Positions 3,756 to 56,445 of a DNA stretch of 64,000 nt are shown here, one piece after another. This DNA is from Lactiplantibacillus mudanjiangensis. GTDB taxonomy: Bacteria; Bacillota; Bacilli; Lactobacillales; Lactobacillaceae. The stretch lies in contig NZ_BJDY01000007.1 in NCBI RefSeq assembly GCF_005405385.1, positions 124,001 to 188,000 on the forward strand. The letters are read 5' to 3'. A model generated the notes under the pieces. The model had not been told where the DNA came from and did not search any database. It saw nothing but the letters and a program-made list of their open reading frames with translations. The position numbers and the translations under genes were made by a program. How positions within the stretch are numbered: position 1 is the stretch's first letter; every line of letters begins with the position of its first letter.

Positions 3756-3990
3756 CACCTACGTCAGCTAGTGATAGATTGACTCATGAACTATCCAAAC
3801 AACATCAAATATAGCCGAGAGTTCGTTCACTCAGGGCCCAGCCGTGGGGACTCTTAGCAATTTATCGCTTAGAGTCTGGCGCTTTTGAAACGCGGTTTTA
3901 GCAGTTCAAAACGACGGTTAAGGCCGCCCTTTGGCTTAACCGGTTCACCCACAGTGTTCCGGCCCTGAGTGAACGAACGGTAGGCGGCAA
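3756..3990 (+). repeat. Dispersed hairpin-rich element, copy R1 (arm 1 deleted)
   Basis: A shortened copy of the recurrent intergenic element. It keeps the CACCTACG left core and a fragment of arm 1 (CAGCTAGTGAT), then a complete arm 2. Arm 2 has a basal stem CACTCAGGGCC/GGCCCTGAGTG, the hairpin GACTCTTAGCAATTTATCGCTTAGAGTC and the apical hairpin GGTTAAG/CTTAACC. The right core is CGGTAGGCGGCAA. Basal and apical stem sequences differ from the other copies but still pair. It lies between two convergent genes. Confidence 0.85.
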
Positions 3991-9047: not shown

Positions 9048-11252
9048 TTAGTGGCGCCGTTGACGTCGAGCAGCAAAGCCACCCAGTGTTAACGCACTAG
9101 CCAAAACTAAACCGAGCATTGAAGCAGTCCGATTTTGCGTTTCATCAGTTTGTGGCAAACCTTTACCTTTTAGCGCTGCGACTACCCGAGCACGTAAGGC
9201 TTCCAGCTTAGCAACCAAGGCTTGGTCGCCATTAGCTTTAGCCTGAGCAATAGCTGCATCTAACTGTGATAACAGTGCTTCTTCCGCCGCTGCCTGTTCA
9301 TCAGCAGGTAATGCTAATGCTTCATCAAACTTATCTTCAAAACTTTCTTCAACCGCTTGATCATAATCTTCGGAATAGAGATGTTCTTCTTCATCCGGTG
9401 TTTGTTCATCAGGAACCGCCGTATTGGGATCTTCGGAATCCTCAGGTTCATCAACATCGGTTGGTGTTTCTGGTTCTTCAGTTGTTGGTTCTTCTGGTTC
9501 TTCAGGATCAGTTGGCGTTTCGGGTTCTTCAGTTGTTGGTGTTTCTGGTTCTTCAGGTTCTGTTGGAACTTCTGGAACTTCTGGCTCTTCAGTTTCTCCT
9601 GGTTCATCAGGGAACTCAGGATCTGGATCTGGCTCTTTAGGATCATTCTCATTATCTTTGTTATCTTGTAAATCCCAACGATGAGTTTCAGCTTTAACCA
9701 CTACTTTATTGGCAATAATATTACCATCTAAGTTTTGGTTAGCAATCACTTCAGCGGATGGTGCCAACACGCTACCTTGGAAGGCCGCATTAACATTGAT
9801 TGTGCCAGCGTATTGCTTATCACTGGCCGTTGAATCAAAGAAGTTCCAAAGTAAATGGTTATCCCCAAAGTCTTCGGTTTCATGATTATTTCGATCGGAA
9901 CCATCATCATAAACAACCTTAATTTGTGAATTAACATTGTAATCAGCTTGGCCTTCCGTATCAACATTGATAATAATGGTATTCCCATCTTTATCTGAAG
10001 AAAGTCCCTTGATCGTCAATGGTGTATTGCCAGCAAGCACATCGGCTGATAAATTAATCACAATTTGACCATTTTCATCAGGTTCTAGATCACTCACGTC
10101 AATGACCCGATTATTCATATCCGTGAAGTCACTATTGGTGTAACTCACATTACTGTCTTTAACCGCTAAAGCGGCGTTAGTCTTCTTTAATTGTGCAAAT
10201 TCTTTTTCAAAATCAATATAAACATTGCCAGCTTTATCTTGATAGACTTCTTCTGCTAGCAAATGATCAATATAGGTGCCATTAACCATGGGCCGGTTGG
10301 GATTGCTAACATCGATTTCAATACCTTCACCAAAGATAACCTTATTGACACGAGTATCCCCATTAGATACAAAAGAACTATTCGCGATGTTGGTAATATT
10401 TTGAATATATGAAATATCTTTATCAAGCAATTCTTCGATAATATTGGTCCCAAAGTTAACGTTACCAATTAAGTTACCAACCGCGATATTCCCATTCGTA
10501 TGTGCATTTAATTCAGCTTCATTCGCAAAAATATGGAATTGCGATGAAATGCCTAAGATATTGTGCAAATCAGCATAATCATCATAAACTGAACCACCAT
10601 CTTGCACGGCATCATTGACCGCAGCAGTCACTTTAGCATTTGATTTAAACGTCCCAAAATCAGAGGCTGTTGAACCCAGATCAATACTAGTTGTTTGAAC
10701 TTTTTGAGCGGCATCGCTAGCATCAGCAGTTTGATCTTGAGTATCCGTTGTTGATGTGGTTTTAGCTGGTGTTTGCACATCAGTTTTAGTCGATTCTGCA
10801 GTCTTGGCCGTATCCGTTTGAGCCGTCTTAGCTTGATTCTGATTAGTCGTATCCGTCTTGTCAGCAGTCACCTTAGTGGTATCTGCGCTCGTTGCTGGCG
10901 TTTGACTTGATTGGTCGTCCTTAACGTCAGTTTGACTTGATTGACTACTTTGATTGGATTGACTATCAGCCTGTTCATTACTAGATTGACTGGCATCTTT
11001 AGATTCACTCGTCGCGTTGTCATCAGTTGTAGCCGCTTGTTTTTGAGTCGTAGCCGTTGACTTCAACGTTACCGTACTCGACTCACTTGTTGAACTAGCG
11101 TCATTTGCTTCAACGTTACTGTTACTACTATCGGCGTTAGCATCAGCTTGCACCGTAACGCTCGCCCCACCTAACGTTAATAATACCGCACAGGCAAACG
11201 CCCACTTACGGCCAATTTTGTACATCTTAAAATGCGTCCGTTTACTTTCCAT
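9048..11252 (-). CDS. Sortase-anchored surface protein with choice-of-anchor-A-like domain
   Basis: A 734-aa cell-wall protein. The N-terminus is a KxYKxGKxW-type signal peptide (FKMYKIGRKWAFACAVLLTL, ending near VQADA). A Ser/Thr/Gln-rich low-complexity stalk covers about residues 40-190. A globular region from about 195 to 530 starts DLHNILGISSQFHIFANEAE and contains GNIAVGNLIGNVNFG and QGSVLAPSAEVIANQNLDGNIIANK, which fit the choice-of-anchor A (collagen-binding-protein-like) domain. Acidic Pro-Glu-Thr repeats (EEPETPT) span about 535-620, followed by an Ala-rich coiled segment. The protein ends with LPQTDE, a hydrophobic helix and RRQRRH, the L. plantarum form of the sortase A signal. It is probably an adhesin. 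The gene stands alone between two terminators or hairpins. Confidence 0.88.
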   Translation of the reverse strand: MESKRTHFKMYKIGRKWAFACAVLLTLGGASVTVQADANADSSNSNVEANDASSTSESSTVTLKSTATTQKQAATTDDNATSESKDASQSSNEQADSQSNQSSQSSQTDVKDDQSSQTPATSADTTKVTADKTDTTNQNQAKTAQTDTAKTAESTKTDVQTPAKTTSTTDTQDQTADASDAAQKVQTTSIDLGSTASDFGTFKSNAKVTAAVNDAVQDGGSVYDDYADLHNILGISSQFHIFANEAELNAHTNGNIAVGNLIGNVNFGTNIIEELLDKDISYIQNITNIANSSFVSNGDTRVNKVIFGEGIEIDVSNPNRPMVNGTYIDHLLAEEVYQDKAGNVYIDFEKEFAQLKKTNAALAVKDSNVSYTNSDFTDMNNRVIDVSDLEPDENGQIVINLSADVLAGNTPLTIKGLSSDKDGNTIIINVDTEGQADYNVNSQIKVVYDDGSDRNNHETEDFGDNHLLWNFFDSTASDKQYAGTINVNAAFQGSVLAPSAEVIANQNLDGNIIANKVVVKAETHRWDLQDNKDNENDPKEPDPDPEFPDEPGETEEPEVPEVPTEPEEPETPTTEEPETPTDPEEPEEPTTEEPETPTDVDEPEDSEDPNTAVPDEQTPDEEEHLYSEDYDQAVEESFEDKFDEALALPADEQAAAEEALLSQLDAAIAQAKANGDQALVAKLEALRARVVAALKGKGLPQTDETQNRTASMLGLVLASALTLGGFAARRQRRH

Positions 11253-13870: not shown

Positions 13871-14335
13871 CAGTTGAAAGTTATTTTTTACAATATTCAC
13901 AACAGGAAAGTTACTGATCAAAAGCAGATCAACTTGCCACCTACCGTTCGCCCACCTTGAGCCGGAACGCTGTGGGCGGACCGATTCAGCCACAAAGCGG
14001 TCTGAACCGTCGTTTTGAACCACCAAAATCGTGTTTCAAAAGCGCCAGTCTCTAAGCGATAAATCGCTAAGAGACTCCCACGGCTGGGCTCAATGTGGGC
14101 TCACTCTCGGCTATAATAGTGATCACTAATTGATTAGTATCCACGTGATAACCGGAGTCAGGCAGTGATGGCGCCGGCCGTGAAAACATCGTTAGTCCGG
14201 GTGATTTTTCCGGGCTTACGATGTGGACGACTTTTGAGACTAGCGGTTTTAGCTAGGCTCAAAAGCGAGGCGAAAGCCCGCATTTTGGCTGGAGCCGGTC
14301 CCACAGCCGGCAGAATCACTGGCTGACGCAGGTGG
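13871..14335 (-). repeat. Dispersed hairpin-rich element, copy R2 (both arms complete)
   Basis: A near full-length copy in reverse orientation that fills the gap between the FSA and GH1 genes. A terminal-repeat relic (CAGTTGAAAG) is at 13871-13880, and the cores are 13933-14335. Reading its own plus sense, arm 1 spans CCAGTGATTCTGCCGGC to GCCGGCGCCATCACTG. It has internal hairpins CTTTTGAG/CTCAAAAG and a TCCGG/CCGGA stem. Arm 2 contains AGTCTCTTAGCGA/TCGCTTAGAGACT and GGTTCAG/CTGAATC. The far terminal repeat is not recognisable. Confidence 0.85.
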
Positions 14336-14395
14336 CTAACTTAGCATGACATAAGCCAATAATGTTAAAGCTTCTACTACCCTATTAATCTTTAA

Positions 14396-21917: not shown

Positions 21918-24047
21918 ATGCAAATTGATCAACTTGATATTCGACAAGGCACCGCCAACACCCCACAACGGTCACACGGTAACTGTCTACCGTACGTCGG
22001 CGTGCCATTTGGGATGAACTATTTTAGTGTGCAAACCGATGGCTCAGCTGGCAGCTGGTTCTTCCAGCCTGACAGTCCTCGTTTTGAGGGCATTCGGCTG
22101 ACTCATCAACCTAGCCCTTGGATTGGCGACTATTGCTATTTCTTAATGACCGCGGTTCAATGGCAATCGTCAGCAACTAAACCCGATTTGGTCGGTAATT
22201 ATCGGCCAACTGCCGCGACGTTCAATGCCCATCATTTGGCGTTAGTCGATGACCATTTCCGTGTCCGAACCGAGCTAACCCCCACCGCTTACGGCGCTGC
22301 TAGTCGTTATCAGTTTGATCAATTGATTGCTGAGCATCATGGCCTTGCCATTCAATTGCCAGACCAAGGCAGCTTCATGTTGACCGCTACTGGAATTGAC
22401 CTTTATACCAATGATTATCACGGTGGCGAAGATCCCGATTTGAAGCTCTATGCTTCCCTCACCTTACCAGACATTGATTTGGCTCATTCTGGCTATTATG
22501 ATCACGATCAACAATGGCATGCGACTACCCAAGCCACTGGTCAAAACTTAACCATCTTAATTGCAACAACTGCAATGACTTTTGAAACTCGTTTAGCCAC
22601 CTCTTACGTCAGCGCTGATCAAGCTACGTTAAATCGCACACGGCTTAGCGATCAATCATTTGAAACCCTATTAAATGAAAGCGCTGACCAATGGGCTCAC
22701 TATCTCAACCGGGTGACGGTAACTGATCATCACCCCGCTACGGTGAAGACATTCTACACTTGTTTATATCGACTATTCCTGTTTCCACAGCGATTTTACG
22801 AACTTGATGCCAATCAACAACCCATTCATTACGACACCACCGCGCACCAATCTAAGCCAGGGCTCCTTTATACAAATAATGGTTTCTGGGACACCGCTAA
22901 AACGGTCTACAGTTTGTTTACCATTTTGGCACCTGAACTCTTGCCGAAGTTTCTCAAAGGCTTCTTAACCAGCTATCAAGAAACCGGCTTTCTCCCTCGC
23001 TGGTTGGCCCCAGATGAACGTGGCATGATGCCCGGGAACTTGGTAGATTCAGTCATTGCTGAGAGTGCCAAAAAAGGCTTGGCTAAAGACTTAATGCCAG
23101 CGTTACTAGCCGCTATGCAGGCCAGTGACACCGCGGCAACCAACACCCGCTATGGTCGCCAGGGCGCGGACGCATACGAGAAATACGGTTATATTCCGGC
23201 CGATCAATACAACGAAAGTGTGAACTGGACCCAAGACTACTCCTATAGTGATTACTGCATCGGTCAAGTTGCCGATGTTTTAGGCCAGTCAAAATTGGCG
23301 ACCAACTATTGGCAACAATCTCATCGTTACTTGGCACTCTTAGACCCCCAAACCGGCTTTTTGCGGCCGAAAAATGCTGATGGGTCGTTTAAACCCAACT
23401 TCATCCCTGATCGCTGGGGCACCGATTATACAGAAGGCAGTGCTTGGCAAAATAGCTTTGCGGCGGTCCACGATCTGCCAACTATGATTGACGCTTTCGG
23501 TGGTGACACTAAATTTAACGCTCAATTAACTAAGCTATGCAACACCGCACCTTCTTATCAAGTTGGTGGCTATGGCATGGTTATTCACGAAATGGCCGAA
23601 ATGGCAGCAGTTGATTACGGTCAACTCGCAATTTCAAATCAACCTAGTTTCCATCTGCCATACCTATTTGCAGTTGCCGGTCATCCTGAAAAAACACAAG
23701 TCACCGTTAAACAGTTACGTCGGCTCTTCAATGCTAGCCCAACCGGTTTCCCAGGTGATGAAGATAATGGCTCCATGGCTGGTTGGTTCATCTTTGCTTG
23801 TCTCGGATTCTATCCGGTCTGCCCAGCCGATGCTGAATATGTCTTTGGGATTCCGGCCTTTGATGAAGTAGTCATTCATTTGGCAGATCACGACTTGACG
23901 TTAACCACGCAAAATAATCATGATCACAACAATTTTGTGCAACAACGTCAACTCGAAACAAGCCCAATGACCGCCAACAAGATCAGCCACGCTGACTTAC
24001 TTAAAGCACATCAGTTGACCACTCGGTTAGGCTTAGTGCCTAGTTAA
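21918..24047 (+). CDS. GH92 alpha-mannosidase (exo-alpha-1,2-mannosidase-like)
   Basis: A 709-aa family 92 enzyme. Motifs are GNCLPYVGVPFGMNYFSVQT and IRLTHQPSPWIGDY in the N-terminal beta domain, then TNNGFWDTAKTVYSLFTI, YIPADQYNESVNWTQDYSYSDYC and FPGDEDNGSMAGWFIFACLGFYP in the (alpha/alpha)6 domain. The GDEDNGSMAGW segment carries the expected catalytic acidic residues. GH92 enzymes are calcium-dependent exo-alpha-mannosidases, mostly alpha-1,2. No signal peptide, so it acts after uptake. It is co-transcribed with the preceding regulator: 3-bp gap, and AAAGGAGG lies inside the regulator's last codons. Confidence 0.92.
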   Translation: MQIDQLDIRQGTANTPQRSHGNCLPYVGVPFGMNYFSVQTDGSAGSWFFQPDSPRFEGIRLTHQPSPWIGDYCYFLMTAVQWQSSATKPDLVGNYRPTAATFNAHHLALVDDHFRVRTELTPTAYGAASRYQFDQLIAEHHGLAIQLPDQGSFMLTATGIDLYTNDYHGGEDPDLKLYASLTLPDIDLAHSGYYDHDQQWHATTQATGQNLTILIATTAMTFETRLATSYVSADQATLNRTRLSDQSFETLLNESADQWAHYLNRVTVTDHHPATVKTFYTCLYRLFLFPQRFYELDANQQPIHYDTTAHQSKPGLLYTNNGFWDTAKTVYSLFTILAPELLPKFLKGFLTSYQETGFLPRWLAPDERGMMPGNLVDSVIAESAKKGLAKDLMPALLAAMQASDTAATNTRYGRQGADAYEKYGYIPADQYNESVNWTQDYSYSDYCIGQVADVLGQSKLATNYWQQSHRYLALLDPQTGFLRPKNADGSFKPNFIPDRWGTDYTEGSAWQNSFAAVHDLPTMIDAFGGDTKFNAQLTKLCNTAPSYQVGGYGMVIHEMAEMAAVDYGQLAISNQPSFHLPYLFAVAGHPEKTQVTVKQLRRLFNASPTGFPGDEDNGSMAGWFIFACLGFYPVCPADAEYVFGIPAFDEVVIHLADHDLTLTTQNNHDHNNFVQQRQLETSPMTANKISHADLLKAHQLTTRLGLVPS

Positions 24048-24060
24048 CGCTTAAATGAGT

Positions 24061-24460
24061 CACCTCCGCCAACCAGTGATTCTGCCAGCTGTGGGGACCG
24101 GTTCCAGCCAAAGTACGGGCTTCCACCTCGCTTTTGAGCCTAGCCAAAACCACTAGTCTCAAAAGTCGTCCATATCGTAAAGTCCGGGAAAGCCACCCGG
24201 ACTAACGATATTTTCACGGCCGGCGCCATCACTGGCTGGCTCCGGTTGTATTGCGACTACCAATCAATATTGTAATCATCATAACCGAGAGTGAGTCCAC
24301 ATTGAGCCCAGCCGTGGGAGCTCTTAGCGATTTATCGCTTAGAGCTTGGCGCTTTTGAAACACGGGCTTGGTGGTTCAAAACGATGGTCGAGACCGCTCT
24401 TTGGCTCGACCAGTCCGCCCACAGCGTTCCGGCTCAAGGTGGGCGAACGGTAGGTGGCAA
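24061..24460 (+). repeat. Dispersed hairpin-rich element, copy R3 (two complete arms)
   Basis: A 400-bp copy with both arms but without recognisable outer terminal repeats. Arm 1 hairpins are CTTTTGAG/CTCAAAAG and a GTCCGGG/CCCGGAC-like stem. Arm 2 has GCTCTTAGCGA/TCGCTTAGAGC and the apical pair GGTCGAG/CTCGACC, a stem variant not seen in the other copies but still fully paired. It lies between the convergent GH92 and response-regulator genes. Confidence 0.85.
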
Positions 24461-24467
24461 GTACAAG

Positions 24468-24509
24468 AAAAAGATCCTCGCAACGCGTTAACGTTACGAG
24501 GATCTTTTT
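24468..24509. terminator. Bidirectional intrinsic terminator
   Basis: The arms AAAAAGATCCTCG and CGAGGATCTTTTT enclose an inner ACG/CGT pair. It lies between GH92 and the response-regulator gene and closes the ABC/two-component operon. Confidence 0.85.
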
Positions 24510-24519
24510 GGGCGCTTGC

Positions 24520-25998
24520 TCAACTAATTTGTAGCTTGCCTTGCCGTTGTTGCCGATATTCTTTCGGTGAAATATCACAGATGACGCGGAAATTTTTATA
24601 AAAGTAGCCACTATTCGTGTAGCCAATTGCCAAAGCAATATTATTAATACTCTCATTGGTTGTCGCCAACATCTGCTTAGCTTGATCAATCCGATATTGA
24701 TTTAAATATTTTGAAAAACTCGTATGAACTTCTTTTTTAAATAATTGCCCTAAATAAACTGGATTAAGATGCAAGCGATCAGCAACTTGGGTTAGTGATA
24801 AATCTTGTGCATATTCTTGTGCCACCATGTCCACTACCCGATTGATATTTTGGGAAAAAGCATAGGCTTGACGTGGTTCGAATTGAACGATCATGGCTTG
24901 GACAGCGGCTTCTAACTCACCAATCGTGGTGGCAACATCAATTGCCGTCAGTTGTTGCTCGTAGTCTCGATTACTCAATGATTGATAATTACTCATCACA
25001 TTCAAGATTAAAAAGGCAATCTGACGAGCATACGATGGTGCAACATGTTCATCACTCAACTGTGCAAAGATCTTTTGTACACTTTGCGCCATCAAGGACT
25101 GATTGGCGACCATCACTGCTTGCTTGAACCCAGCCAACGAAATTTTAGGAATCTCGGCCTGTCGCAACCATTCTGTTCGCGCAGCGTTGGATAAAAATGG
25201 CGCCCGTTCTTCATAGAATTGATAGAGTTCCGCCAGCGTTTGCGCTTGTTCCAAACTTTCGGCTAACCGCTCCATCTGATTGACATGTTGTCCCACCGTA
25301 ATAAACGAGTCACCGGCAATCAATTGATCACGTTCAAGTTGACGCACAAACTGATTCAACGCCGTATGTGTCCCCGCGAAACATAAAATCAATTGATCCG
25401 CATTGGTATAAAACAGTGACTGCTGTTGCTGTTGACAAGCCGCCATCACCGCTTCAAAATCGGCTAAGACATTACAACAAACAACGGTAAATTCATGTTC
25501 ATCAGCGGCAATTCCCGCCCGATCTAATAGATCCGCCATCTGAGTAGTGGTTAATTCGCCGGCCAATAGTCGTTCTGTTTGCATTTCCAAGTAATATCGT
25601 TGACTTAAGGTTTGTTGCTGCCGTTGGGCCAGCTGCTGTTGTACCTTATTTAAAACATCACCTAACTCTTTTGCATTGACCGGTTTCAACAAGTAATCCA
25701 GTGCCCCTAAACGTAGCGCTGATTTCACATAATCAAATTCTTGATAGCCCGACAACACAATCACTGCCGGCACCTGGGGTAAGTGCTGTACAGCTTGCAT
25801 CAAGTCAATCCCCGTCATTTCAGGCATTCGTACATCTGTAATGATTAAATCAACCGACTGCGTTTGGAGTGTCGCCAACGCTTGTTGACCATTTCTAGCG
25901 GTCGCAACGATTTCAAACCCATGTTGTTGCCAATCGATTACTTTGGTCATCCCTTTTAAAATCATGTACTCATCATCGACAATCATCACACGTTCCAT
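24520..25998 (-). CDS. YesN-type response regulator with AraC DNA-binding domain
   Basis: A 492-aa regulator. The receiver domain spans residues 1-120: acidic pocket VDDEYM, phospho-acceptor Asp55 in ITDVRMP, and a Lys in YLLKPVN. A middle region of about 230 residues without a clear fold follows. The C-terminal AraC/XylS double helix-turn-helix has LSLTQVADRLHLNPVYLGQLFKKE and NNIALAIGYTNSGYFYKNFR. The start is ATG 25998, with GGGGG upstream. It is the last gene of the ABC operon, next to its YesM-type kinase. Such pairs typically activate transport genes when extracellular glycans are sensed, so it probably activates this locus. Confidence 0.9.
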   Translation of the reverse strand: MERVMIVDDEYMILKGMTKVIDWQQHGFEIVATARNGQQALATLQTQSVDLIITDVRMPEMTGIDLMQAVQHLPQVPAVIVLSGYQEFDYVKSALRLGALDYLLKPVNAKELGDVLNKVQQQLAQRQQQTLSQRYYLEMQTERLLAGELTTTQMADLLDRAGIAADEHEFTVVCCNVLADFEAVMAACQQQQQSLFYTNADQLILCFAGTHTALNQFVRQLERDQLIAGDSFITVGQHVNQMERLAESLEQAQTLAELYQFYEERAPFLSNAARTEWLRQAEIPKISLAGFKQAVMVANQSLMAQSVQKIFAQLSDEHVAPSYARQIAFLILNVMSNYQSLSNRDYEQQLTAIDVATTIGELEAAVQAMIVQFEPRQAYAFSQNINRVVDMVAQEYAQDLSLTQVADRLHLNPVYLGQLFKKEVHTSFSKYLNQYRIDQAKQMLATTNESINNIALAIGYTNSGYFYKNFRVICDISPKEYRQQRQGKLQIS

Positions 25999-26030
25999 CA
26001 CTCAATTCCCCCTCATCCTGGCAAATCCCA

Positions 26031-30049: not shown

Positions 30050-30970
30050 CTATTCTTTGACCCCACCAATAGTTAAACCACGGACAAAATACTTCTGGAA
30101 GAATGGATAGCTCAAAGCAATTGGCGCAACCGAAATTACAACCATCGCCATTTGAGTAGCTTCCTTTGGAATGTTGGCCAGGCCACTCGCATATTGCGCG
30201 CCTTGAGTGGCATTTTGCGATAACATTTCAATGTTGGATTGAATCTGCATTAATAAATATTGCAATGGAACTAAATGGGTATTTTGAATGTAAAGTAACG
30301 CGTTGAACCAGTCATTCCAATAGCCCAGTGCCGCAAACAAACTAATCGTCGCAATCCCGGGTACCGCTAGTGGCAAGACAATTTGGATAAAGATCCGCAT
30401 TTCACTAGCCCCATCAATCCGGGCCGCTTCAATAATTGACTCATTAACTTGTCGTTTGAAGAACGTTCGCATGACGATGATATTGAATGGACTCACTGCC
30501 ATTGGCAAGATCAATGCCCAGATCGTATCTTTCAATTGCAACAGATTGGTCATGACAATATAGTTTGCAACCATCCCTGGTGTGAATAACATCGTGATCA
30601 GACAGAAAATCGTGAAGAAACGCCGATATTTGAAGCTTGAACGTGAAATCGAATACGCATACGTCGAGGTGAAGGTCGCGTTAATTGCCGTCCCTAACAC
30701 CGTGACAAGCACCGTCACGCCCAATGCGTTCATCAATTGACCACTCATTTTACTTAAGTACTCATACCCAGCCGTGCTCCATTGTGACGGCCAGAATTGA
30801 TAGCCATTCGTGACCAAGGAGTGTTCACTAGATAGTGAGATGACAATAATAAAGATCAATGGTAATAAACAAGAGATGGCGAACAGCGCCACTAAAATAT
30901 TAAAGAAGACATTCGCCCCTCGACCAAAAGATCGGATTTCAACGGTCGAAATTTCCTTTTTATGCCACAT
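30050..30970 (-). CDS. ABC transporter permease, YtcP/LplC type
   Basis: A 306-aa membrane protein with six helices. The EAA loop is EAARIDGASEMRIFIQIVLPLAVPG. The N-terminus FNILVALFAISCLLPLIFIIVISLSSE and the C-terminus KYFVRGLTIGGVKE are standard for the second permease of LplBC / YtcP carbohydrate importers. It heterodimerises with the product of the preceding gene, 13 bp upstream. It carries AAGGAGGGG before its ATG. Confidence 0.9.
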   Translation of the reverse strand: MWHKKEISTVEIRSFGRGANVFFNILVALFAISCLLPLIFIIVISLSSEHSLVTNGYQFWPSQWSTAGYEYLSKMSGQLMNALGVTVLVTVLGTAINATFTSTYAYSISRSSFKYRRFFTIFCLITMLFTPGMVANYIVMTNLLQLKDTIWALILPMAVSPFNIIVMRTFFKRQVNESIIEAARIDGASEMRIFIQIVLPLAVPGIATISLFAALGYWNDWFNALLYIQNTHLVPLQYLLMQIQSNIEMLSQNATQGAQYASGLANIPKEATQMAMVVISVAPIALSYPFFQKYFVRGLTIGGVKE

Positions 30971-30983
30971 GTTACACCCCTCC

Positions 30984-31991
30984 TTAGAATAGTGCTGAAT
31001 CTGAATCGATTCGGCGAACGATAAAGTTACTAATCATCAATAAGACGAATCCGACTAACGATTGATACAAGGCCGCCGCACTTGACATCCCAATATCACC
31101 AGTAGACGTTAACCCGTTATAAATATACGTATCCAATACCGATGTCACATTATATAAACTACCAGAATTTTGTGGGACTTGATAGAACAGTCCAAAGTCG
31201 GCCCGGAAGATATTCCCAATGGCTAGAATCGTCATTAAGGTCATCAATGGGACTAACGCTGGAATCGTAACATTCTTAATCTGTTGCCACTTGTTTGCAC
31301 CATCAATTTCAGCAGCTTCAAACAAGGTCGGATCAATCCCCATGGCACTGGCAAAGTAAAGAATACTGTTGTATCCAATCCCTTTCCATGTCCCAACTAG
31401 GAGTAAAATAAATGGCCAGTATTTAGGCGCGTTATACCAACTGATTGCCTTACCACCGTTACCCGTCAATAAGGAATTCAACAACCCTTGACTAGGACTT
31501 AAGAAGGCGTAAACGAAGTAACTAATAATAACCCATGATAAGAAGTAAGGCAGTAACATTGACGTCTGATAAACCTTCGTCAATCGCTTATTTCGTAACT
31601 GGCTCATCACAATAGCAAAGAACACTGAAATGATTAAATTCAACGAAATAAAGCCTAAATTGTAGAGCACCGTATTTCGTGTAATCAGCCAAGCCGCATT
31701 CGAACTGAATAAGAATTTAAAGTTATTGAATCCCACCCAGGGACTGCTTTGTAGACTGGCAATAAAGCCATTCGGATTAAATTGAAAATCTTTGAAGGCC
31801 ACCACATTAGCAAAAACTGGAATGTAGAAGAAGAATAGCATCCAGATGACCCCAGGAATAACGAATAGAACTAACGGGGTGTTATCTCGGACACTGTACC
31901 AAAAGTTTTCACGTCGTTCTTGTTTTCGCCGTGCTTTATCTTCCGGTGTTTCCGGTCGCATTGCGGGCATTTCTGGTTGTACATTTTGCAT
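30984..31991 (-). CDS. ABC transporter permease, LplB type
   Basis: A 335-aa permease. A long cytoplasmic N-terminal tail (ARRKQERRENFWYSV) precedes six helices and the EAA motif EAAEIDGANKWQQIKNVTIPAL. It ends with VGFVLLMISNFIVRRIDSDSALF, typical of LplB. It is the first gene after a 92-bp gap containing a cre-like sequence, so it may have its own promoter in addition to read-through from the ATPase and kinase genes upstream. GGAAAGGAG precedes the ATG. Confidence 0.9.
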   Translation of the reverse strand: MQNVQPEMPAMRPETPEDKARRKQERRENFWYSVRDNTPLVLFVIPGVIWMLFFFYIPVFANVVAFKDFQFNPNGFIASLQSSPWVGFNNFKFLFSSNAAWLITRNTVLYNLGFISLNLIISVFFAIVMSQLRNKRLTKVYQTSMLLPYFLSWVIISYFVYAFLSPSQGLLNSLLTGNGGKAISWYNAPKYWPFILLLVGTWKGIGYNSILYFASAMGIDPTLFEAAEIDGANKWQQIKNVTIPALVPLMTLMTILAIGNIFRADFGLFYQVPQNSGSLYNVTSVLDTYIYNGLTSTGDIGMSSAAALYQSLVGFVLLMISNFIVRRIDSDSALF

Positions 31992-35043: not shown

Positions 35044-35409
35044 CAAAAGGTTGAAAGTTAAATGTATTGGTCGAAACCTTACCGACATTGACTTAAGTTG
35101 GATTAAATTTGTCACCTACGCCAGCCAGTGATTCTGCCGGCTGTATTGCAGATGTTAAATCGTTTTGTGATCACGAATATAACCGAGAGCGAGCCCACCT
35201 TGAGCCCGGCCGTGGGAAGCTTTTAGCGATTTATCGCTTAGAGCTTGGCGTTTTTGAAACACGGGGTTGGTGGTTCAAAACGACGGTTCAGACCGCCTTT
35301 TGGCTGAACCGGTCCCACCCACAGCGTTCCGGCTCAAGGTGGGCGAACAGCAGGTGGCAAGCATGACCATATCAACAATTATTGCTAAAAAGTAGCTTTC
35401 AACCTTTAG
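35044..35409 (+). repeat. Dispersed hairpin-rich element, copy R4 (terminal repeats kept, arm 1 deleted)
   Basis: The left terminal repeat is CAAAAGGTTGAAAG (35044-35057) and the right one CTTTCAACCTTTAG (35396-35409). Outside them is a direct repeat CTATGACAAA (35038-35047 and 35412-35421), overlapping the left end, consistent with a target duplication. Arm 1 is reduced to CACCTACGCCAGCCAGTGATTC. Arm 2 is complete, with basal stem GCCCACCTTGAGCC/GGCTCAAGGTGGGC and apical stem GGTTCAG/CTGAACC. Confidence 0.85.
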
Positions 35410-36901: not shown

Positions 36902-37410
36902 AAGGTAATGAACAAACATAACGGTAAAAAACTATGCTAATAGTCACCTCCGTCGGCCAGTGATTCTGCCGGCTGTGGGGACCGGTTGCAGCCAAAGTGC
37001 GGGCTTCCACCTCGCTTTTAAGCCTAGCTAAACCCGCTAGTCTCAAAAGTCGTCCACATCGTAAAGTCCGGGAAAACTACCTGGACTAACAATATTTTCA
37101 CGGCCGGCGCCATCACTGGCCGACTCCGGTTATATCGTAACCGAGTAATCACTAATATAGCCGAGAGTGAGCTCACATTGAGCCCAGCCGTGGGAGCTCT
37201 TGGCGATTTATCGCTTAGAGCTGGGCGTTTTTGAAACACAGGTTGGGTGGTTCAAAACGACGGACCAGACCGCCTTTTGGCTGGTCCGGTCCGCCCACAG
37301 CGTTCCGGCTCAATGTAGGCGAACGGTAGGTGGAAAGTAAGTCTAAGTTTGATTGATGATCACTTATCATATCAACGATTATTGCTATATAAATAACTTT
37401 CAACCTTTAG
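36902..37410 (+). repeat. Dispersed hairpin-rich element, copy R5 (both arms complete)
   Basis: The core runs from CACCTCCG at 36945. The right terminal repeat CTTTCAACCTTTAG is at 37397-37410; the left end is degenerate (ATAAAGGTAATGAAC near 36903). Arm 1 has CTTTTAAG facing CTCAAAAG, an intermediate A-C mismatch. Arm 2's apical stem is GGACCAG/CTGGTCC, a paired variant unique to this copy. It lies upstream of the EIIA-like gene and downstream of the diguanylate cyclase. Confidence 0.85.
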
Positions 37411-40059: not shown

Positions 40060-40131
40060 TATTTACTCTCCTCATTTCTGATTATAATTAGACGTTTAAA
40101 TATGACGGTAAAACCTTTAAGTCGTGCTTAG

Positions 40132-40470
40132 CCACCTCCGCCAGCCAGTGATTCTCTGCCGGCTGTGGGGACCAGTTCCAGCCAAAAAGCGGGCTTCCAC
40201 CTCGCTTTTAAGCCTAGCTAAAACCGCTAGTCTTAAAAGTCATCCACATCGTAAAGTCCGGGAGAATCACCGGACTAACGATGTTTTCACGGCCGGCGCC
40301 ATCACTGGCTGGCTCCGCTTGTATTGCAAATACCAATAAATCGCGTATCACCATCACAGCCAAGAGTGCCTCCACATTGAGCCGAACCGCTGTGGGCAAA
40401 CGGCAGATAGCAAGTCGCTCTACTTTTGATCAGTGATCATTACCAAAGTCAACTTTCAACCTTCATTTAG
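40132..40470 (+). repeat. Dispersed hairpin-rich element, copy R6 (arm 2 mostly deleted)
   Basis: It has a complete arm 1 with the hairpin CTTTTAAG...CTTAAAAG; both sides have changed relative to CTTTTGAG/CTCAAAAG in other copies. Arm 2 is reduced to its base (CCACATTGAGCC then GCTGTGGG and CGGCAGATAGCAAG). The right terminal repeat is degenerate (CTTTCAACCTTCATTTAG, ending 40470). It lies between the VIT gene and nrdG. Confidence 0.8.
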
Positions 40471-44242: not shown

Positions 44243-44755
44243 CTAAAGGTTGAAAGCTACTTTTTAGCAATAATCGTTGATATGATAAGCATTCATCGAT
44301 CAAAACTAGTCATACTTGCCGCCTACCGTTCGCCCACCTTGAGCCGGAACGCTGTGGGCGAACCGTCGTTTTGAACCACCCAACCCGTGTTTCAAAAGCG
44401 CCAGTCTCTAAGCGATAAATCGCTAAGAGACTCCCACGGCTGGGCTCAATGTGGAGGCACTCTCGGCTATGTTAGTGACTACAAACTTGATTAACATCTA
44501 ACCGGAGCCAGCTAGTGATGACGCCGGCCGTGAAAATATCGTTAGTCCGGGTGATCTTCCCGAACTTTACGATATGGACGACTTTTGAGACTGGTGGCTT
44601 TGGCTAGGCTCAAAAGCGAGGTAGCAGCCCGCACTTTGGCTGGAGCCGGTCCCCACAGCCGGCAGAATCGCTGGCTGGCGTAGGTGACAATTTAATCCAA
44701 CTTAAGTCAATGTTGGTATGGTTTCGATCAATAACATTTAACTTTCAACCTTTAG
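44243..44755 (-). repeat. Dispersed hairpin-rich element, copy R7: MITE-like reference copy with terminal repeats and target duplication
   Basis: A 513-bp element. It has perfect 14-bp terminal inverted repeats, CTAAAGGTTGAAAG (44243-44256) and CTTTCAACCTTTAG (44742-44755), flanked by a perfect 7-bp duplication TTGATTA (44236-44242 and 44756-44762). The right duplication contains the stop codon of the M20 peptidase gene. Inside are both arms in reverse orientation; arm 2 lacks its apical hairpin. There is no transposase-sized ORF. Confidence 0.9.
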
Positions 44756-47610: not shown

Positions 47611-48090
47611 CTAAAGGTAAATTAAATATGTTGGTCGAAACCTTACCAACATTGACTTAAGTTGGATTAAATTGTCAACCTACGCCAGCCAGTGATTTTG
47701 CCGGCTGTTGGGACCGGTTCAAGCCAAAATGCGGGCTTTCACCTCGTAAGCCCGGGAAAACCACCCGGACCAACGATATTTTCACGGCCGGTGCCATCAC
47801 TGGCTGACTTCGGTTATATCGCAAACAATCACCATCATAACCGAGAGTGAGTCCACATTGAACCCAGCCGTGGGAAGCTCTAAGCGATTTATCGCTTAGA
47901 GCTTGGCGTTTTTGAAACACGGGGTTGGTGGTTCAAAAACGACGGTTCAGACCGCCTTTTGGCTGAACCGGTCCGCCCACAGCGTTCCGGCTCAATGTGG
48001 GCGAACGGTAGGTGGCAAGTACGACCAGTTTTGATCAGTAGTACTCTTCTCATCAACAATTATTGCTAAAAAGTAGCTTTCAACCTTTAG
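47611..48090 (+). repeat. Dispersed hairpin-rich element, copy R8 (terminal repeats and target duplication)
   Basis: A 480-bp copy. The left end CTAAAGGT (47611, terminal repeat partly lost) and right end CTTTCAACCTTTAG (48077-48090) are flanked by TTACTTC (47604-47610) and TAACTTC (48091-48097), a 7-bp duplication with one mismatch. Its left inner flank (TTGGTCGAAACCTTACC...AACATTGACTTAAG) is shared with R4 and R7. Arm 1 is shortened (the CTTTTGAG hairpin is missing); arm 2 is complete. It lies directly after the apbE terminator. Confidence 0.88.
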
Positions 48091-50596: not shown

Positions 50597-50909
50597 CTGA
50601 ACATTATTTTTTGCAATATTCGTTGATTTTGCAAATATTCTCCAATCAAAATAGTTATCCTTACCACCTGCCGTTCGCCCACCTCGAGCCGGAGCCAGCC
50701 AGTGATGGAGCCGGCCGTGAAAACATCGTTAGTCCGGGTGGCTTTCCCGGGCTGACGATGTGGACGACTTTTGAGACTAGCGGTTTTAGCTAGGCTCAAA
50801 AGCGAGGCGGAAGTCCGCATTTTGGCTGGCGCAGGTCCCACAGCCGGCAGAATCACTGGCTGGCGCAGGTGACAAATTTAGCCTGCCGTAAGTGTTTTTC
50901 AAACTTTAG
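50597..50909 (-). repeat. Dispersed hairpin-rich element, copy R9 (arm 2 deleted)
   Basis: It begins directly after the WYL stop codon (CTGAAC, degenerate terminal repeat) and ends TTTTCAAACTTTAG (50909). Approximate 7-bp flanks are TAATTAG and TGATTAA. Arm 1 is complete in reverse orientation; arm 2 has collapsed to its base (GCCCACCTCGAGCCGG). Confidence 0.8.
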
Positions 50910-56115: not shown

Positions 56116-56142
56116 CTGGCGGTTTGAGTTATGCTAAATATG

Positions 56143-56445
56143 CCACCTACGCTAGCCAGCGATTCTGCCGGCTGTGGGGACCGGTTCCAGCCAAGATTCG
56201 GGCTTCCACCTCGCTTTTGAGCCTAGCCAAAACCACTAGTCTCAAAAGTCGTCCACATCGTAAAGTCCGGCAAAATCATCCGGACTAACGATGTTTTCAC
56301 GGCCGGTGCCATCACTGGCTAGCTCCGGTTATCATGCAGATATTAATTAATCAGTGATCACTATCCTAACCGAGAGTGCCTCCACATTGAACCGGTACGG
56401 CTCAATGTGAGTGAACGTTAGGTGAAGTTACTTTTTAGCAATTAA
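56143..56445 (+). repeat. Dispersed hairpin-rich element, copy R10 (arm 2 collapsed)
   Basis: Arm 1 is complete (CTAGCCAGCGATTCTGCC to GCCATCACTGGCTAGC; the GCTAGCC/GGCTAGC base has changed on both sides relative to GCCAGCC/GGCTGGC). Arm 2 is reduced to a single stem, CCACATTGAACC facing GGCTCAATGTG. The right flank TTACTTTTTAGCAATTAACC resembles the interior of R7 and R8. Confidence 0.8.

Follow-up and report, generated by a model that had tools for sequence, protein, structure and literature searches.

The stretch at 24061-24460 of the 64-kb window, that is, of the whole piece of DNA analysed here, holds one copy of a dispersed repeat and raises the question of whether such a repeat is selected as a folded molecule. 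Comparison with weak matches in related species resolves the element body into two inverted homologous arms of ~190 nt each. Each arm is a cloverleaf, in which an outer stem P1 (for example GCCAGCCAGTGAT / ATCACTGGCTGGC) surrounds the hairpins P2, P3 and P4. The full cloverleaf, the homology of the inverted arms and the kinship with miniature transposons (MITEs) described below had escaped the original prediction. Read in arm-sense, the commonest fixed letters are GGGGACCGG..AGCC..CGGTCT..CCTCGCTT..AAGCC..AAGTCT..GACGTCC, and the stems vary. Pairwise identity amounts to 0.66-0.72 in the spacer as against 0.91-0.93 in the arms. R1, a covariance model of the arm core (142 positions, 37 pairs, built from 21 hand-picked arms), detects 15 arms in the window, distributed over ten element copies, the copy at 24 kb included:

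24061-24255, plus strand: 24-kb copy, arm 1, cloverleaf P1-P4; R1 match 24079-24228, 118 bits
24256-24287, no strand: 24-kb copy, spacer, variable, as seen in the alignment
24288-24463, minus strand: 24-kb copy, arm 2, inverted homologous module; R1 match 24303-24434 (-), 79.8 bits
3811-3990, plus strand: partial copy, arm 2 alone; R1 match 3833-3964 (-)
13932-14343, minus strand: full twin-arm copy, arm 1 at 14169-14316 (-), arm 2 at 13960-14092 (+); a search for a terminal repeat pair around it found none
35044-35409, plus strand: MITE with terminal repeats (366-bp TIR pair), arm 1 deleted, arm 2 at 35201-35334 (-)
36942-37410, plus strand: twin-arm copy, arm 1 at 36963-37112 (+), arm 2 at 37179-37310 (-), right terminal repeat at 37397-37410
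40130-40389, plus strand: copy retaining arm 1 (40153-40301) and the spacer, with most of arm 2 gone
44243-44755, minus strand: MITE with two ends, CTAAAGGTTGAAAG at 44243-44256 and CTTTCAACCTTTAG at 44742-44755, duplication TTGATTA; arm 1 at 44519-44668 (-), arm 2 at 44342-44448 (+), internally deleted
47667-48090, plus strand: copy with an internal deletion in arm 1 (47695-47796, +), arm 2 at 47859-47992 (-), right terminal repeat at 48077-48090
50660-50880, minus strand: copy with arm 1 at 50706-50853 (-), arm 2 deleted
56135-56393, plus strand: copy with arm 1 at 56162-56311 (+), arm 2 gone

Short direct repeats at 9439-9600, inside ORF 9048-11252 (-), are a separate matter and look like a repetitive protein stretch.

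The starting point was the claim that both sides of the stems change together between copies, and a string check found the stem pairs in question among the ten window copies. The apical stem of arm 2 reads GGTTCAG/CTGAACC at 35 and 47.6 kb, GGTTAAG/CTTAACC at 3.8 kb, GGTCGAG/CTCGACC in the 24-kb copy and GGACCAG/CTGGTCC at 37 kb, and the base of the same arm is CCACCTTGAGCC/GGCTCAAGGTGG at 35 kb and CACTCAGGGCC/GGCCCTGAGTG at 3.8 kb. The arm 1 hairpin, CTTTTGAG/CTCAAAAG in five copies, is CTTTTAAG/CTTAAAAG at 40 kb; the middle hairpin occurs as GACTC/GAGTC at 3.8 kb, as AGCTC/GAGCT at 24, 37 and 47.6 kb and as GTCTC../..GAGAC at 14 and 44 kb. There are also counter-examples that had not been pointed out before: the copies at 14, 24 and 44 kb have CCACATTGAGCC/GGCTCAAGGTGG and the copy at 37 kb has CTTTTAAG/CTCAAAAG, with one pair broken in either case.

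Alignment A2 comprises the best 150 of 166 R1 matches in 77 named Lactobacillaceae loci and was fitted to R1, which leans towards the structure; in this alignment 93.1% of 5298 pair cells hold standard pairs, compared with 35.6-47.5% when the partners are slid. The covariation score is 0.548 as opposed to 0.137 for shuffled and 0.05-0.10 for slid partners, and 34 of the 37 pairs have changed on both sides. That covariation exceeds what phylogeny leads one to expect is borne out by the cross-genus arms: against a tree-based null built from a FastTree tree, parsimony change counts and 25 simulated alignments, an imitation of R-scape and not the program itself, 24 of the 37 structure pairs, in P2, P3 and P4, pass at E<=0.05 and no other column pair does (9453 tests). 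In alignment A3, the 87 arms of the own genome alone, 2 of 36 pairs pass at the same threshold, again with no other column pair. The covariation within the own genome is suggestive, and the proof rests on the cross-genus arms. P1 lies mostly outside R1 and was judged by duplex energies, given as medians since the means are spoiled by N runs: the two flanks of an arm form a more stable duplex with each other than with the flanks of other arms, both among 146 arms (-26.2 versus -15.0 kcal/mol) and among the 87 own arms (-16.7 versus -12.8 kcal/mol). Furthermore, in arms chosen by a pattern in the P2 region and at the start of P3 (77 of 81 instances are in A2), 1646 of 1766 cells of P3 and P4 are Watson-Crick. 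A C.T mismatch is retained in both P2 and P3 (A2 columns 37/51 and 72/106), each letter being present in at least 92% of the arms. Compensatory change is thus genuine and extends over the whole family, which makes selection of the fold very probable.

The z-scores of the fold energy of single arms lie between -5.5 and -6.3, and arm 1 of the 24-kb copy, with -5.9 as DNA on the plus and -6.2 on the minus strand, adopts the same cloverleaf as DNA of either strand and as minus-strand RNA (z ~-6). The idea of the whole element as one folded transcript was dropped: the arms are inverted, which speaks against the full 400 nt folding as one transcript, and in the 403-nt RNA fold the two arms pair with each other. 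The claim that the element is selected for its fold is supported by covariation above the tree expectation and by outer-stem flanks pairing best with their own partner. The wider proposal, in which the folded molecule may be RNA, single-stranded DNA or a cruciform and the paired changes come about by selection or by hairpin-templated correction, is partly supported. Rfam 15 gave no match at gathering thresholds in the whole window and, for 23900-24600 at E<=5, three weak matches, none of them over an arm. At 24461-24509 (-), a weak match to ctRNA_p42d (25 bits, gathering 50) resembles a terminator hairpin beside the 24-kb copy.

The mispairs bear on the strand that folds. On the arm-sense strand A-C cells outnumber G-T cells in A2 (185 versus 82) and A3 (77 versus 25); in the own genome the counts are 58 versus 6 for arm 1 and 19 versus 17 for arm 2, and in P3 and P4 of the pattern-selected arms the asymmetry is nearly absent (42 versus 36). 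Single-step events from Watson-Crick pairs, again in arm-sense, lead to A-C more often than to G-T (80 versus 34, p 2e-5; 43 versus 21, p 0.008). In unpaired columns G>A exceeds C>T and T>C does not exceed A>G per base, so that no such bias is seen there overall; the A-C excess may nevertheless be partly mutational. Since A-C on the arm-sense strand corresponds to a G-T wobble on the opposite one, the strand that tolerates wobbles reads outward in both arms. The folded strand is therefore more likely the one that runs, 5' to 3', from the element's centre towards its ends; this is a lead and not a proof, and the wobble asymmetry of ~2:1 in events is weaker than expected for ordinary RNA.

The arms are part of elements that have the ends of DNA transposons. 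In a flank alignment of the own copies, many are bounded by the ends CTAAAGGTTGAAAG ... CTTTCAACCTTTAG, ~65-75 nt outside the arms, and many have target duplications of ~8 bp at these IS4-type ends when read by eye. The 14-mer end occurs 132 times in the own genome with at most one mismatch (63+69; reversed control 0), a 17-mer version with one mismatch is present in 12 of 21 genus genomes, and 51 of 86 own arms have such an end within 140 nt at <=2 mismatches. TIR pairs 193-555 bp apart enclose MITEs in the own and related genomes, and deletion derivatives of 193-439 bp retain both ends and duplications. One clean insertion, with the duplication ACAACAAC, has its empty site in a close relative, and in syntenic stretches of 40 and 80 kb several elements are present in one of G016 and G004 and absent from the other, where the absence may be a loss. 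Two 1.5-kb elements with CTAAAGGTTGAAAG-type ends carry pieces of a DDE transposase, and in all eight fetched loci (L257 being identical with L203) the IS4-type transposase is flanked by MITE ends 1460-1567 bp apart at <=2 mismatches; in L260 it is intact, with 451 aa and a match to NF049925 of 481.6 bits. Both terminal inverted repeats shared with an IS and a target duplication of the length typical of the family are accordingly present in the repeat family. At E<=1e-20 the IS4-type transposase has no counterpart in the own genome, and 9 of 23 family genomes with this transposase show no arms. The 24-kb copy (L001, 24061-24463) has no IS4-type end within 85 nt at <=2 mismatches and, classed by its arms, appears to be a decayed relative of the MITEs that has lost its ends rather than an intact MITE.

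A second set of ends accompanies the arms in other species. Twenty twin-arm copies of ~380 nt from G017 lack the IS4-type end in all 40 flanks at <=3 mismatches (control 0) and end in ACGCTTGGTGCTAGTTG instead, with duplications of 7-9 bp that are clear by eye in part of the copies. With <=2 mismatches this 17-mer is found 83+96 times in G008, 90+91 in G017, 11+10 in G014 and 3+3 in G009, the controls being 1+0 in G008 and 0+0 in G017. G014 possesses a 958-bp IS with the same ends and a 289-aa IS982 transposase (NF033520, 222 bits); copies in G008, G017 and G009 share the AC-type ends with this IS982 element and have duplications within the 6-9 bp of that family. These MITEs are mostly 388-405 bp long. 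In 28 loci R1 found 47 arms, spread over 24 of them: both arms in 20 of 20 G017 copies, two arms in each of L313, L327 (both G008) and L337 (G009), and a single one in L311 (G009), so that G009 has arms between IS982-type ends at two loci; the IS loci L315 and L328 and the end pairs L323 and L336 had none by R1. Most of these arms are without P2 or P3 and fold into three-way structures, in which 93.2% of the cells are paired and the covariation score is 0.267 compared with 0.094 shuffled and at most 0.065 slid. Since the two types of MITE differ in their ends and both carry arms, the arm module is what they have in common. The ends and duplications resemble those of IS4 and IS982 insertion sequences, and transposases of these families would therefore presumably move the corresponding MITEs in trans. 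An IS that itself carries arms was sought in L203, L205, L315, L328, L323 and L336 and not found; for the IS4-type loci L203 and L205 the search was made with R1, and L258-L264 lay outside it.

Several known systems invite comparison. The ISPepr1 subgroup of IS4 is described with lengths of 1500-1600 bp, YT-AA-YTT---A ends and 7-8 bp duplications (PMC2266710). By these features the present elements are similar in their CTAAAGGTTGAAAG ends, the ~8-bp duplication and a partner IS of 1460-1567 bp, and differ at end position 7, which is G here and Y in the subgroup as described there. From IS4-family MITEs they are set apart by a body of two inverted ~190-nt cloverleafs, which was not found in IS loci L203 and L205. 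ISLpl4 of L. plantarum, a member of the IS982 family, is given as 985 bp with 292 aa and an 8-bp duplication (PMC7335449). End pairs of the sequence ACGCGTGGTGCTAGTTC are located 985-988 bp apart in L323, L335 and L336, the length of ISLpl4. The likeness to the IS982 family lies in the AC ends, the 958-bp IS, the 289-aa transposase and the 7-9-bp duplications; the difference lies in the arms that the MITE carries, which are of the type found in IS4-type MITEs and for the most part lack one hairpin each. BOX, RUP, SPRITE, Correia, ERIC and bcr repeats likewise have many intergenic copies with stable folds and are, or are thought to be, mobilised by ISs. They are shorter, with one main hairpin, and we know of none that forms an inverted pair of cloverleafs with such covariation. 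Shared with REP/BIME repeats and TnpAREP and with IS200/IS605 ends are a folded single strand, a conserved mismatch and inverted pairs; the unit here is ~190 nt long, not a palindrome of 20-40 nt, and is not classed with REP/BIME. IS200/IS605 insertion leaves no target duplication, so that an element of this type is ruled out by the duplications present, and the ends are inverted repeats of DDE transposases. Parvovirus-type hairpin ends and Streptomyces telomeres have palindromes nested in a long stem, one per end and inverted; the present element, in contrast, is integrated and has target duplications. A search of the literature and Rfam yielded no account of a twin-cloverleaf module carried by IS4-type and IS982-type MITEs.

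The family is abundant and patchily distributed. In the own genome (G000, 3.29 Mb) blastn with the 24-kb copy listed 41 matches, query included, 40 of them near full length and 86-100% identical (40 scored of 225 first-look candidates), and with R1 all 150 scored of 893 first-look candidates matched. Should the window, which has 15 arms in its 64 kb, be typical, extrapolation gives ~770 arms for the own genome, or several percent of its DNA, in bacteria related to food. R1, with up to 150 candidates scored per genome, detected arms in 19 of 21 genus genomes, those without being G001 and G002; a scan of the family under stricter filters, limited to 15 scored candidates in each genome, found arms in 51 of 201 genomes and 12 of 40 sampled genera. 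Hosts among the matches listed include Lactiplantibacillus fabifermentans, xiangfangensis, herbarum and daowaiensis, several Levilactobacillus, Companilactobacillus huachuanensis and Lactobacillus sp. HBUAS51381. Plasmid and phage collections gave no blastn match to the 24-kb copy. Between distant species the arms group by genome and not by locus in a tree, as expected for bursts. G005, G015, G019 and G003 (L092-L095) yield only weakly scoring arms and, like G001 and G002 with none, look as if the family had died out there. Of 83 listed pairs <=500 nt apart, 78 run sense-then-antisense, five in the same direction and none in reverse order. Spacers of the own genome are short, and those of L. 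fabifermentans and others measure up to ~500 nt; their interiors are mostly unrelated. Arm pairs of L. fabifermentans (L112-L189) have 170-500 nt of largely unique DNA between them, in some cases with what looks by eye like a terminator hairpin.

The best explanation overall, which we hold to be probable if far from certain, is that these are miniature transposons of Lactobacillaceae with a body of twin inverted cloverleafs whose fold is recognised by a factor that aids their spread. The folded strand of each arm would be bound by some protein or RNA helping the element to spread, and because the fold helps spread, source copies that keep it would be those that leave descendants. The outward strand could be the one that carries the transferred 3' end at the end of a DDE transposon, or it could be a transcript leaving the centre. 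With age, copies would shed their ends and persist as fixed DNA between genes, the copy at 24061-24463 being a case in point. Our best guess at the mode of action is thus a cis-acting single-strand structure that would promote spread, with the outward strand folded. On the other hand, the 193-bp L225 has both arms largely deleted and still possesses good ends and a duplication; elements of this kind indicate that an inserted element does not absolutely require arms in order to exist, although the deletion may be later.

A second difficulty leads to an alternative that we regard as unlikely, namely that the host keeps the arms in place as RNA or DNA sites, for example as 3'-end RNA structures or chromosome-organising sites, with the MITE ends as the route of arrival. 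In seven own copies without terminal repeats the outer flanks are at the random level (identity 0.559 and 0.529, random 0.530) and the arms are as similar as in copies with ends (0.920 and 0.909), in a comparison of 11 copies with and seven without ends in which sampling favoured good arms, a strict pattern passed over 15 of 37 edge-defined copies and four one-ended copies were left out. Arms thus seem to be kept, homogenised or spread in the absence of ends, and arms ~0.91 identical beside ends at random level are not easily predicted by pure selection at the source. The window arms are likewise 0.86-0.97 alike with or without ends (arm 2 at 3.8 kb, with 0.78-0.88, is the exception), and by eye five of the eight convergent gene gaps in the window hold arms. 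Arms of L. fabifermentans have unrelated flanks (0.256) and an IS4-type end in 1 of 63 cases at <=2 mismatches (control 1 of 63), or 4 versus 1 at <=3, and in 2357 cells show 66 A-C, 44 G-T and 35 other mispairs. Both this set and that of the own genome, however, were picked by arm similarity or arm pattern. Orthologous arms of close species are not clearly slower than their flanks (1569 of 1685 versus 1087 of 1193 sites; the flanks are partly coding and one of seven cases is not anchored). The clustering by genome and the genus genomes with no arms (two of 21) or weak ones also speak against upkeep by the host.

One gap illustrates how far position can be relied upon. Between a convergent GH/AraC gene pair (window 21918-26001; L245-L256) arms are present in all seven loci with AraC as neighbour and in none of five where it is not (E<=0.01, one of these arms being weak). 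These arms are mostly species-specific in sequence, and G016 has two elements in a row. In the tree the G004 and G016 arms are orthologous, and the G014 arm groups with other G014 arms, so that a shared position alone is no proof of vertical inheritance.

Somewhat less likely still is hairpin-templated correction, in which stem mismatches are repaired from the other side or by template switching and no selection of the fold takes place. Parsimony counts of direct changes from one Watson-Crick pair to another versus changes from Watson-Crick to mismatch are 452 versus 228 in A2 and 91 versus 101 in A3, and deletions and some orientation flips occur, as is known for palindromes. Direct double changes also build up on long branches, however, and blind correction should erase the C.T mismatches of P2 and P3, which are kept; it also leaves the conserved letters of loops and junctions unexplained. 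That the paired changes merely reflect shared ancestry of a few subfamilies is very improbable: many variants of the own genome are subfamily-shared, where just two pairs surpass the tree-based null, yet the cross-genus set passes at 24 pairs and nowhere else.

Selection of the fold through its benefit for spread is thus retained as the preferred reading. It may be extended to the more tentative, though quite conceivable, proposal that the twin cloverleaf is a free-standing, fold-selected module adopted by at least two unrelated families of DDE transposons and present a hundred to several hundred times per genome, a single-strand passenger or helper of MITEs that would outlast their ends and turn in place. 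Bacterial MITEs are usually seen as function-less remnants of ISs; here the body is the widely conserved part. With this module one can put to a concrete test the idea that selection in a DNA transposon may act on a folded single strand, and the module also has a bearing on assembling and annotating lactobacillus genomes.

Orientation can be compared at orthologous sites. G004 and G016 gave no element-length inverted match. In the two close species G008 (L269/L270) and G017 (L271/L272), twin-arm elements that share a site are oriented oppositely, clearly so at 9453-9827 and 30709-31106 of the joined G008 stretch. A comparison of L279 with L287-L289 shows a partial flip at L279 19464-19827 and a further weak match at the contig end. 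The breakpoints of the flips are near the arm tips and not clean. Between G008 and G017 the twin element at L279 4913-5262 is collinear, as are two single arms, and there is one mixed case.
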